The translations under genes were made by a program, and so were the position numbers. Shown one piece after another: positions 5,207 to 7,435 of a stretch of 44,039 nucleotides of DNA (position 1 is its first letter; every line of letters begins with the position of its first letter). The notes below the pieces were generated by a model, which was given only the letters and a program-made list of their open reading frames with translations, was not told the DNA's origin and made no database searches. Source of the DNA: Armatimonadota bacterium (GTDB lineage: Bacteria; Armatimonadota; UBA5829; DTJY01); NCBI GenBank assembly GCA_017993055.1, contig JAGONM010000030.1:2173-46211 (forward strand), given 5' to 3'.

Positions 5207-6070
5207 TCAGCACCCGAATGCCAGCAGGTCAATGATGCGCATCAGATCTTCGTCGTCGTAGAACTCGATGTCTATGCTGCCCTTGTCGCCGCGGCGCGAT
5301 ATCGAAACCTTCGTCCCCAGGTAGCGGCGCAGTTTTTCCTCGACGTCCGCGAGGTTCGGGTCCGGACGTCTATGACGCGTTTCACGTGAAACGCCGCCTG
5401 TCTTTGACATCCTTGAAGGGCCTGACACGCGTGACAGCCGCTCGGCCTCGCGTACGCTGAGCCCCTGTTTCACGATCCGCTCCCACGCATCCAGCTGCAG
5501 GTCGGGGTCGGTTATCGAGAGCAAGGCCCGCGCGTGGCCCTCGGTTATCTCATCGCGCTCCAGGCTCTCCATGATCGGGAGGGGCAGGTTCAGGAGGCGC
5601 AGGGTGTTCGCCACTGCGGAGCGGCTCTTCCCGACGCGCTCGGCCACCTGGTCCTGCGTCAGGCCGAACTCGTCGAGCAGCCGCCGGTAGGCCTCCGCGC
5701 ATTCGAGGGGGCTTATGTCCTCGCGCTGGAGGTTCTCGACGAGAGCGAGTTCAAGCGTCTCGCGGTCGTTCAGGACGCGCGAAACCGCCGGGATGCTCCG
5801 CAGGCCGGCCTGCACCGCCGCGCGGAACCGCCGCTCACCGGCTACCAGCTCGAACGATTCGCCGTCCACCGGCCTCACGAGAACCGGCTGGAGGATGCCG
5901 TTCTGCCGGATGGACTCGGCCAGTTCGTCGAGCTTGTCGTCGTCGAAGGACTTGCGCGGCTGATTCGGGTTAAGGCGTATCCTGTCGAGGTTCAGGTCAA
6001 CGACGGACAGTATCTGCACGGGCTGGGGAGTCTCGTCCTCCGTCTCATCTCGAACGGTTTCTGTGTCCAT
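5207..6070 (-). CDS. parB: ParB/Noc chromosome partitioning protein
   Basis: A 287-residue ParB family CTPase and centromere-binding protein. Seen: the N-terminal RLNPNQPRKSFDDDKLDELAESI region, the CTP-binding GERRFRA motif at residues 78-84, the ENLQRE motif at 112-117, the central DNA-binding helix-turn-helix (LTQDQVAERVGKSRSAVAN, about 133-152), and a C-terminal dimerisation segment. Between the HTH and the C-terminal domain the codons for VSRET form a perfect parS core, so the gene carries its own nucleation site. ParA is not adjacent, which is unusual; flgM lies upstream instead. The HTH-coiled-coil gene lies downstream. ParB loads on parS and slides as a clamp to help segregate origins. 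Confidence 0.95.
   Translation of the reverse strand: MDTETVRDETEDETPQPVQILSVVDLNLDRIRLNPNQPRKSFDDDKLDELAESIRQNGILQPVLVRPVDGESFELVAGERRFRAAVQAGLRSIPAVSRVLNDRETLELALVENLQREDISPLECAEAYRRLLDEFGLTQDQVAERVGKSRSAVANTLRLLNLPLPIMESLERDEITEGHARALLSITDPDLQLDAWERIVKQGLSVREAERLSRVSGPSRMSKTGGVSRETRHRRPDPNLADVEEKLRRYLGTKVSISRRGDKGSIDIEFYDDEDLMRIIDLLAFGC
5377..5394. promoter_or_regulatory. parS site inside parB
   Basis: The 18-bp perfect palindrome GCGTTTCACGTGAAACGC contains the 14-bp parS core GTTTCACGTGAAAC that ParB/Noc proteins bind. It lies inside the parB reading frame, as in Bacillus spo0J. It is the only copy I saw in the window. Confidence 0.93.
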
Positions 6071-6218
6071 TTATCCCTCGGGCTGTCTATGACGCCATTG
6101 ACACCGGTGCGGGCTCAGAGGCAGGTTCGGCGGACGGGTGGGGATTTCCTTCATCCGCCGCGGGCGCGAATGCGGGGCAGGGTGGGGCGCCCCGACGAGG
6201 CGGACACGTCATAGACAA

Positions 6219-6251
6219 GGGGCCGCCCCGCATGAGACGCGGAACGGCCCC
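6219..6251 (-). terminator. strong hairpin after flgM, possible terminator
   Basis: On the minus strand, GGGGCCG and CGGCCCC pair around a GC-rich inner stem and short loop, 31 bp past the flgM stop codon. No clear T-run follows, so it may be an mRNA-stabilising stem or a weak terminator between flgM and parB. Confidence 0.4.
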
Positions 6252-6281
6252 GAACGAATCTGGGTTTCTCGAGCGGTCAGC

Positions 6282-6587
6282 TTACTTTATGCTGTCCGCC
6301 TGCATCCGGCGGACCATCATGTCGGCGATCTCCTCGCCGCTGACCTTGTAGTCGCCCTTCTCGACGCGCTCCTTGAGCTTCATCACGACTTCCTCGCGGA
6401 CGTCCGGCGCCGCGTCCACGACCTTCGCGACCATCTTTATCTCGGCCGCGGTCGGTTCGACTACCTTCGACTCGGGAAGCTCGTCGAGCGTGATCTCCTT
6501 GAACTTCAGGTCGGGCTCGCCTGTCTTGCGAGTCTTGACCTGCTGCTTCGCGAGAAGCCTGGCTACTTCGGATGCTGAAATCTGCAT
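6282..6587 (-). CDS. flgM: anti-sigma-28 factor FlgM family
   Basis: A 101-residue protein of the FlgM family, which binds the flagellar sigma factor FliA until the hook-basal body is complete. The C-terminal half carries the family pattern: a helix with VREEVVMKLKERVEKG, then DYKVSGEEIADMMVRRM. The N-terminus starts ISASEVARLL, usual for short FlgM proteins. The ATG follows a strong GAGGGG site. No other flagellar gene is in the window. The leader contains a c-di-GMP-I riboswitch and a terminator-like structure, so expression is probably set by the second messenger that controls motility. Identity rests on the C-terminal motif only. Confidence 0.82.
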   Translation of the reverse strand: MQISASEVARLLAKQQVKTRKTGEPDLKFKEITLDELPESKVVEPTAAEIKMVAKVVDAAPDVREEVVMKLKERVEKGDYKVSGEEIADMMVRRMQADSIK

Positions 6588-6612
6588 TTATCCGCCCCTC
6601 TCTGCCCGGGAC

Positions 6613-6660
6613 GGTCGGCAAACAAAAAAGGCCGACTCTCCCAAGGCTTCTGAAGACGGC
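6613..6660 (-). terminator. terminator-like expression platform of the c-di-GMP riboswitch
   Basis: On the minus strand the segment after the aptamer reads GCCG, TCTTC, a loop, then GAGAGTCGGC directly followed by CTTTTTT. GCCG, the 3' edge of the aptamer, can pair with CGGC just before the T-run to make a terminator. The same GTCGGC (6631-6636) can instead pair with GCCGAC (6614-6619) across the T-run. These exclusive pairings suggest transcription control. The sign of the switch is not resolved by eye. Confidence 0.6.
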
Positions 6661-6738
6661 AGCCAGGCTGTCATACCCTCTCGGGCTTAGACCCTCGGCT
6701 TTGCGTCCTCTCCTTTCGAAGAGTTTGCCTTTTTCGAT
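6650..6738 (-). ncRNA. cyclic di-GMP-I (GEMM-I) riboswitch aptamer
   Basis: Reading the minus strand, the order of conserved GEMM-I blocks is complete: AAAGGCAAAC, a short stem closed by a CGAAA tetraloop, GGACGCAAAGCC, GGGTCTAAGCCC, and a 3' stem GACAGCCTGGCTGCCG. The base before CAAAC is G (the G20 equivalent), which fits c-di-GMP rather than the cGAMP-selective variant with A. It lies about 63 bp upstream of the flgM start and behind a promoter-like sequence. I am confident in the class from the consensus; a covariance-model score was not computed. Confidence 0.9.
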
Positions 6739-6827
6739 CTATTCGTGCTGTCAGTTCCATTATCGGCGGGCGTTCACCGATCTTTAGGGCCGGACGAAAA
6801 AACTTTGAGGATTTTCTCGCCTCCACC

Positions 6828-6857
6828 AATGTAGCAGTTCGCCGTCCGATTGTCAAT
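6828..6857 (-). promoter_or_regulatory. sigma70-type promoter of the riboswitch-flgM transcript
   Basis: The minus strand has TTGACA (6857-6852), an 18-bp spacer and TACATT (6833-6828). Transcription would start near 6821, about 80 bases before the aptamer. Confidence 0.6.
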
Positions 6858-7125: not shown

Positions 7126-7152
7126 TGGACCCTGAATCGAGTTCAGGGTGAC
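7126..7152. repeat. repeat C, copy 1 (short palindrome)
   Basis: The imperfect palindrome CCCTGAATCGAGTTCAGGG at 7130-7148 is the half-unit that recurs in the longer copies at 10428, 13070 and 15188. It stands just before the repeat D tandem array. Confidence 0.7.
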
Positions 7153-7164
7153 GAGTCCGCAGTC

Positions 7165-7435
7165 CGCCTTGCCAAGGGGGACCGGCCTCCGGGCCGAGGG
7201 GGTTCTGCCCCCCCCGGCCTGCGGAACCTCCCCCGACCCCCTCCTTGTCAAGGAGGGGAGCTCTTCCGCAGTCCCCCCTGAAAAGGGGAACCGGCCTCCG
7301 GGCCGAGGGGTTCTGCCCCCCCGGCCTGCGGAACCTCTCCCGACCCCCTCCTTGTCAAGGAGGGGAGCTCTTCCGCTGTCCCCCTTGCCAAGGTGGACCG
7401 GCCTCCGGGCCGAGGGGGTTCTGCCCCCCCGGGGC
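7165..7435. repeat. repeat D tandem array, about 2.4 units of 107-109 bp
   Basis: Units start at ACCGGCCTCCGGGCCGAGG near 7181, 7290 and 7397, giving periods of 109 and 107 bp. Each unit holds the inverted pairs GGCCTCCGGGCC and CCCTCCTTGTCAAGGAGGGG. A single related copy lies between atpD and atpC. The array fills the space upstream of the ATP synthase promoter. Confidence 0.85.

Follow-up and report, generated by a model that had tools for sequence, protein, structure and literature searches.

A c-di-GMP-I riboswitch placed in front of flgM in Armatimonadota, and a proposed c-di-GMP-gated sigma/anti-sigma loop

Introduction

Riboswitches that respond to c-di-GMP are known in front of structural motility genes. 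What would such an RNA do in front of flgM, a gene for an anti-sigma factor? This arrangement is found in the window, by which we mean the whole stretch of 44,039 nucleotides analysed from a bacterium of the phylum Armatimonadota. A preliminary description of the window had listed a promoter-like sequence, a complete GEMM-I aptamer, a terminator-like platform and flgM, and had read them as a device by which c-di-GMP acts, through FlgM, on the timing of flagellar gene expression. In this study, we followed the leader, its relatives and the partner sigma factor across the phylum. Genomes, contigs, loci and families carry our working handles (G, C, L and f, respectively; G000 is the genome of the window and f1 its family).

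Results

Read in the direction of transcription, the flgM region contains the following features.

6856-6828, minus strand: sigma-70-like promoter, TTGACA-N17-TACATT, 10/12 match
6786-6760, minus strand: sigma-28 (FliA/WhiG-type) promoter, TAAA-N15-GCCGATAA, 12/12 match
6739-6655, minus strand: c-di-GMP-I (GEMM-I) aptamer of the GAAA tetraloop type, covariance-model match to RF01051
6600-6595, minus strand: Shine-Dalgarno sequence GAGGGG, 7 nt before the ATG, read from the sequence
6587-6282, minus strand: flgM, anti-sigma-28 family protein of 101 aa, PF04316

The aptamer is the sole Rfam match over threshold in the window. It scores 86.2 bits against a gathering score of 35 (E 8.8e-16) and covers positions 1-87 of the 87 in the model, which places it among the seven top-scoring aptamers of the phylum survey; a chance match was rejected on this E value together with the linkage in 105 genomes described below. 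Among 50 flgM-linked aptamers, 9 of 15 predicted pairs show pair-keeping two-sided changes in at least one sequence, and the P2 tetraloop is GAAA in the window aptamer and in 49 of the 50 leaders from outside f16 (Fimbriimonadaceae or close). The motif GGCA is kept in all 82 flgM leaders, that of the window included, and its first G is taken here to be G20, the base that selects c-di-GMP. On this assignment the base selecting c-di-GMP over cGAMP is G, not A, in the window aptamer, and a cGAMP-type GEMM-I is not favoured, as every leader has the selective G. The G20A change in a c-di-GMP-I aptamer alters the ligand, according to the excerpt of PMC6274999.

The flgM product matches PF04316 at 45.6 bits against a curated cut-off of 25 (E 8.4e-12). 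It scores below the cut-off of the NCBIfam equivalog TIGR03824 (34.6 vs 40.75), as does the FlgM from the flagellar operon of a relative (36.7). A profile of the relatives' FlgM matches 9wsf_B (5.2e-11) and 1rp3_B (1e-4); the match to the latter, which we take to be Aquifex FlgM, is confined to the C-terminal part. FlgM may bind and inhibit a sigma-28-type factor here too. All four elements of the preliminary description thus stand, on the minus strand and in the order that it gave: its promoter-like sequence is the sigma-70-like site, its aptamer is complete with a significant covariance-model score, its flgM is a member of the family, and its terminator-like platform has a U-tract and a pairing strand. 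A predicted direction of switching and the proposed sigma-28 feedback, both absent from that description, can now be added. The evidence supports a c-di-GMP-I riboswitch placed to control flgM, with c-di-GMP as its presumed ligand. Upstream, the neighbours of the leader are divergent ATP-synthase genes, and a GC-rich repeat-like stretch (GGTTCCGCAGGCCGGG and similar) occupies window positions 7140-7300 between flgM and the ATP-synthase operon.

The pairing is no one-off. Among the flgM matches listed, 105 of 161 Armatimonadota genomes have an aptamer directly in front of flgM (179 flgM genes examined; 105 genes in 105 genomes linked). By family, 105 of 111 genomes are linked in 16 families and 0 of 50 in 17 others. 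These counts include further flgM genes whose upstream aptamers were found with a covariance model built from 50 flgM-linked aptamers; its scores leave a clear gap between 29.5 bits and up and 13.9 and down. The survey covers the listed matches apart from the flgM of G107 and, beyond them, f16 alone, where a search of 41 genomes gave 32 aptamers, 32/32 just upstream of flgM. Of 251 genomes sampled evenly across the phylum, 143 contain the aptamer family and 189 contain FlgM; among the matches listed, at least 50 of these genomes have flgM preceded on its own strand by an aptamer less than 1 kb away. In 50 named genomes from many phyla, four of the five Armatimonadota are linked (G130, G011, G256 and G232, which are not additional to the above), and an aptamer upstream of flgM was found in 0 of 19 flgM-bearing genomes of other phyla. 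Because linkage is all, nearly all or none by family and 0/19 outside, the distribution indicates that the riboswitch-flgM pairing is inherited within Armatimonadota.

For the leader analyses below, 82 leaders were assembled, 32 of them from f16. The f16 aptamers (L141-L172) score only 30-58 bits, with changes at the usual tetraloop receptor and in the GGCAAAC strand (often GGCACGAC); their P2 tetraloop is mostly GCGA or GTGA. They appear to be a variant class of the c-di-GMP-I aptamer.

Two promoters may serve the leader. A scan of 1.4 kb would yield 0.1 promoter-like sites by chance, and the three further f1 genomes that carry riboswitch-flgM (G034, G101 and G125) have a site resembling the sigma-70-like one at a comparable position. 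The sigma-28 promoter, which does not appear in the preliminary description, sits between this site and the aptamer and should start transcription near 6753-6750. It is the only match in 148,814 bases of its own genome, with no further site in 74 kb more (together about 6% of that genome), and no regulon of the sigma factor emerged from this part. The consensus TAAA/GCCGATAA is the flagellar/WhiG one used in the excerpt of PMC8325347. Scored as TAAA-N14-16-GCCGATAA, with one of the 82 leaders dropped for too little upstream sequence, the motif was sought at a distance of 10-36 nt in front of the aptamer. There, 50 of 81 leaders match it at 10 or more of 12 positions, whereas shuffled sequences do so in 0.3-0.7% of cases. 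By group the counts are 15/17 in the window's class, 8/8 in f8, 7/10 in f11, 6/6 in f27 and f36 together, 11/32 in f16 and 3/8 in the rest. Seven of nine matches away from aptamers directly precede a FlgM-like start, judged by eye. Because the sigma-70-like site is also kept in the three family members, transcription of the leader from both promoters is likely. In the interval between the promoters (window 6820-6790, minus strand), an AAAGTTTTTTCG element is common to G000 and G034, and in G101 there is an A/T-rich hairpin that runs out into T's and perhaps attenuates the upstream promoter.

The own genome carries four c-di-GMP-I aptamers. The second precedes a small uncharacterised protein (..GGDAVFLVDRRNGHKLYVG..), after which comes a GAF-SpoIIE phosphatase gene; in the relative G034, too, an aptamer is followed by a small protein of this kind (the two loci are L009 9970-10061, minus strand, and L029 1501-1590, plus strand). 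The third (L006 9165-9263, minus strand) lies before an HD/GAF/GGDEF gene, i.e. a c-di-GMP enzyme, and the fourth (L010 12764-12845, plus strand), which scores 53.3 bits, before a small unclassified ORF. By eye, the aptamer at C18:65970 has GCCGATAA without TAAA at the right distance, and the remaining two have neither GCCGATAA nor TAAA upstream.

Within the aptamer and from there to the Shine-Dalgarno sequence, three elements of the proposed expression platform can be placed.

6736-6718, minus strand: 5' strand of the proposed apo-state terminator, consisting of an A-tract, the GGCAAAC core and the 5' strand of aptamer P2
6642-6623, minus strand: 3' strand of the proposed apo-state terminator, GGGAGAGUCGGCC plus a U6 tract at 6629-6624
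6636-6614, minus strand: GUCGGC/GCCGAC hairpin enclosing the U-tract, mutually exclusive with the terminator helix, read from the sequence

In the window, GAAAAAGGC..ACUCUUC pairs with GGGAGAGU..GCCUUUUUU(G), and this helix, with a duplex energy of -22.4 kcal/mol (z -3.9), is the minimum-free-energy fold of the leader. Most other members of the class have GGCAAAC paired with GUUUGCC-UUUUU. Against dinucleotide shuffles, an aptamer-consuming helix that ends at the U-tract reaches z<-2 in 15 of 17 leaders of the window's class (median -20.1 kcal/mol) and in 0 of 62 elsewhere, three of the 82 leaders being dropped for having less than 20 nt downstream; the terminator model is therefore limited to the window's class. 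The predicted helix resembles an intrinsic terminator: its stem is built on the ligand-holding strand and is flanked by an A-tract on the 5' side and a U-tract on the 3' side. As the terminator and the ligand-bound aptamer are mutually exclusive, c-di-GMP should raise read-through, and we infer that it would turn flgM ON in this class. Most of the switching helix cannot covary, because GGCAAAC is fixed by the aptamer. The GUCGGC/GCCGAC hairpin may possibly act as a lock after read-through.

Outside the window's class, control is probably exerted at translation, for example in f16, where most leaders have the start codon just 20-30 nt after the aptamer. With the aptamer imposed, the Shine-Dalgarno sequence became easier to open in 21 of 32 non-f16 leaders and harder in 3; the median was -1.30 kcal/mol, compared with -0.66 kcal/mol when leaders were swapped (p 0.041 in an unpaired and 0.105 in a paired test), and in f16 the same comparison gave no effect. 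A translational ON switch as a general rule is not claimed, since leaders swapped between families give about half the effect.

The own genome (3.72 Mb in 82 contigs, 99.63% complete) gave 0 candidates for FlhA (PF00771), a single FlgM and no FliA copy beside flhA. It has one FliA/WhiG sigma factor over cut-off (G000:C45:15078-15749), which scores 249 bits against the 189.6 required by TIGR02479 and fails the WhiG equivalog NF004935 (296 vs 343). Its gene adjoins a PPIC-type isomerase gene, with no flagellar gene seen nearby. The reading frames of flgM and of the sigma are both intact.

Across the phylum, FlhA is present in nearly all sampled genomes of f8, f16, f25 and f43, with one FliA/WhiG sigma over cut-off in the genomes tested; an exception to a single FlgM is the f16 genome G258, whose second match is below cut-off. 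The FlhA-bearing genomes G034, G101, G125, G119 and G130 have a second FlgM without an aptamer and a second sigma. That FlgM lies in a flgH-flgI-(flgJ)-flgM-flgN-flgK-flgL-fliW-like order, with names from reading the proteins, and the second sigma is beside flhA in G101, G125 and others. We call partner the sigma copy that is not beside flhA, a choice of ours that was arbitrary between two copies in G022. In a tree of 47 sigma proteins, which leaves out the broken sigma of G013, 29 partners of riboswitch-flgM group together (support 89/81; 98/71 vs the second copies), and copies of the same class beside flhA fall outside this group. The own-genome sigma belongs to the clade that goes with riboswitch-flgM. 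So does the sigma of G011, which is beside flhA, in keeping with a flagellar origin of the set of sigma, FlgM and riboswitch.

Of the 96 linked genomes covered by the FlhA survey, seven have no FlhA in a comparison made by eye (G000, G140, G162, G246, G013, G093 and G075), and five of these seven have an unbroken sigma of the FliA/WhiG kind. G000, G140 and G162 retain both the sigma and riboswitch-flgM. In G013, the FliA-type sigma gene (L374, G013:C4:220318-220989) has an in-frame TAA stop. G046, of the window's family, gave no FlhA, FlgM, such sigma or aptamer. This pattern suggests that the sigma, FlgM and the riboswitch behave as a single unit able to outlive the flagellum.

Discussion

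We propose, with a probability of roughly 60%, that the locus is explained by a c-di-GMP-gated sigma/anti-sigma feedback loop. Its parts are read from the sequence (the aptamer, the sigma-28 promoter, the complementarity, flgM, a sigma of the matching clade and their conservation), and it predicts ligand binding, termination with its direction, sigma-FlgM binding and a regulon. The FliA/WhiG-type sigma would transcribe the flgM leader, and sigma-70 RNA polymerase probably does so as well from the upstream promoter. Without c-di-GMP, the strand GGGAGAGUCGGCC-UUUUUU would capture AAAAAGGCAAACUCUUC of the aptamer to form a terminator-like stem before the U-tract, so that little FlgM would be made and the sigma would stay active. 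With c-di-GMP bound, the core strand GGCAAAC would be held in the aptamer, the polymerase would read through, and FlgM would be made, bind the sigma, and shut both its regulon and the sigma-28 promoter of flgM itself. In the own genome, where the search turned up no flagellar export gene through which FlgM could be secreted, FlgM would be controlled mainly by the RNA. Three genomes count against the loop: G093 has riboswitch-flgM and no FliA/WhiG sigma over cut-off, the sigma gene of G013 is interrupted by its stop codon, and G154 (80% complete) has flgM without an aptamer though FliA/WhiG is present.

One alternative concerns the direction of the switch. Bound c-di-GMP might instead terminate transcription or hide the Shine-Dalgarno sequence, lowering FlgM and freeing the sigma. 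Hairpins at the U-tract (6636-6614) and before the ATG (CCGUCCC/GGGGCGG, a predicted fold) could act in this way after binding, and the families without the terminator helix show no clear direction. High c-di-GMP would then free a motility-type sigma, which runs against the usual logic, and in the window's class the strand at the U-tract pairs with the ligand-binding strand itself, so that binding and terminator exclude each other. We regard an OFF switch as unlikely but worth serious attention, as the known flagellar c-di-GMP-I switch, Cd1 of Clostridioides difficile, terminates when bound in the excerpt of PMC5386303 and to that extent counts against an ON loop. The transcript might also extend from flgM into the partition genes downstream, where two further features lie.

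6251-6219, minus strand: terminator-like hairpin after flgM with a 15-pair stem, separating flgM from parB
5207-6070, minus strand: parB, chromosome partition gene, a neighbour of riboswitch-flgM in many relatives

Riboswitch-flgM is close to parB in the window (5207-6587) and in loci of the range L081-L128, and the window has no parA beside parB. A riboswitch-driven flgM-parAB operon linking c-di-GMP to chromosome segregation would agree with the surroundings of riboswitch-flgM in the relatives: at 33 of 82 loci the flanking sequence analysed contains a parB-like gene, preceded by parA in the members read. We consider it highly improbable, as the strong hairpin divides the two genes in the window, any parB found in f11 genomes is on the opposite strand, and neither f8 nor f16 gave a parB close to flgM; parB is probably not part of the switch in the window.

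Two other alternatives accept the switch and dispute its purpose. The preliminary description had it time flagellar gene expression in this organism. The protein is a true FlgM-family member, and the riboswitch-linked copy is the sole FlgM in nearly all genomes of f8, f16, f25 and f43, mostly with FlhA, so that this part of the description is plausible for many relatives. The own genome, however, has no FlhA, no FlgM in a flagellar operon and no FliA beside flhA. In G101 those genes lie within about 15 kb, so that a single gap in the assembly might account for the three absences; against this stand the high completeness of the assembly and the same pattern in G140 and G162. The flagellar-timing reading thus probably fits many relatives and not this genome, for which we hold it to be clearly unlikely. 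Alternatively, the set could be a relict that decays and does little once flagella are lost, as the stop codon in the G013 sigma gene and the lack of a sigma over cut-off in G093 would suggest. The window genome has a high-scoring aptamer, a perfect sigma-28 promoter and intact flgM and sigma frames, and G046 lacks all members of the set together; a relict is therefore very unlikely in our judgement.

The feedback loop that we favour has relatives among known systems. Cd1, which precedes the flgB operon of C. difficile, is of the same aptamer family and governs flagellar genes by termination in the 5' leader, but in the excerpt of PMC5386303 it is transcribed from a sigma-A promoter, the genes that follow it are structural flagellar genes and sigD, and it switches them OFF, whereas the window has a sigma-28-type promoter, an anti-sigma gene and a predicted ON direction. 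The flgM gene of C. difficile is a sigma-D-dependent late gene, unlike the arrangement in the window. A platform of the proposed direction is Bc1 of Bacillus thuringiensis, also c-di-GMP-I, whose terminators form without c-di-GMP and open with it; however, as the excerpt of PMC11218506 describes it, Bc1 controls mcpE and has its terminators in a long platform after the aptamer that does not consume the aptamer 5' strand. In unlinked Armatimonadota families, a TAAA-N-CCGATAA site can stand upstream of flgM with no aptamer between; such sigma-28-dependent autoregulation would be like the window in its site and unlike it in lacking the RNA.

A parallel in logic is RsiG-WhiG, where, in the excerpt of PMC8325347, the target of c-di-GMP is the anti-sigma to a sigma of the FliA/WhiG family, the promoter consensus is likewise TAAA/GCCGATAA, and the system runs non-flagellar programmes (sporulation and type IV pili). 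There the anti-sigma protein binds c-di-GMP (PMC8325347), whereas in the window the mRNA is the predicted sensor; the RsiG motif E(X)3S(X)2R(X)3Q(X)3D occurs in 0 of 82 FlgM sequences, that of the window included. We suggest tentatively, at somewhat less than even odds, that sigma, FlgM-type anti-sigma and riboswitch form an old Armatimonadota module which began as a flagellar sigma-28 loop, was cut free in lineages like this one for a non-flagellar programme, and is an independent RNA counterpart of RsiG-WhiG with a terminator made from the ligand-binding strand of the aptamer.

The RNA family is known; what is new is its target, flgM, and the sigma-28/anti-sigma loop proposed around it. The preliminary description did not recall the pairing as described, and no paper describing it was found in titles and abstracts of the open-licence literature, from which early GEMM papers may be missing. 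If the proposal is true, a riboswitch that acts on an anti-sigma gene and is transcribed from a promoter of the cognate sigma would close a feedback loop with c-di-GMP as its set point. Two distant bacterial groups would then have linked this sigma family to c-di-GMP, one by way of the RsiG protein and the other by way of an mRNA. As genomes in which no FlhA was found still carry the set, it may offer a route to learn what FliA-type sigma factors do without flagella.
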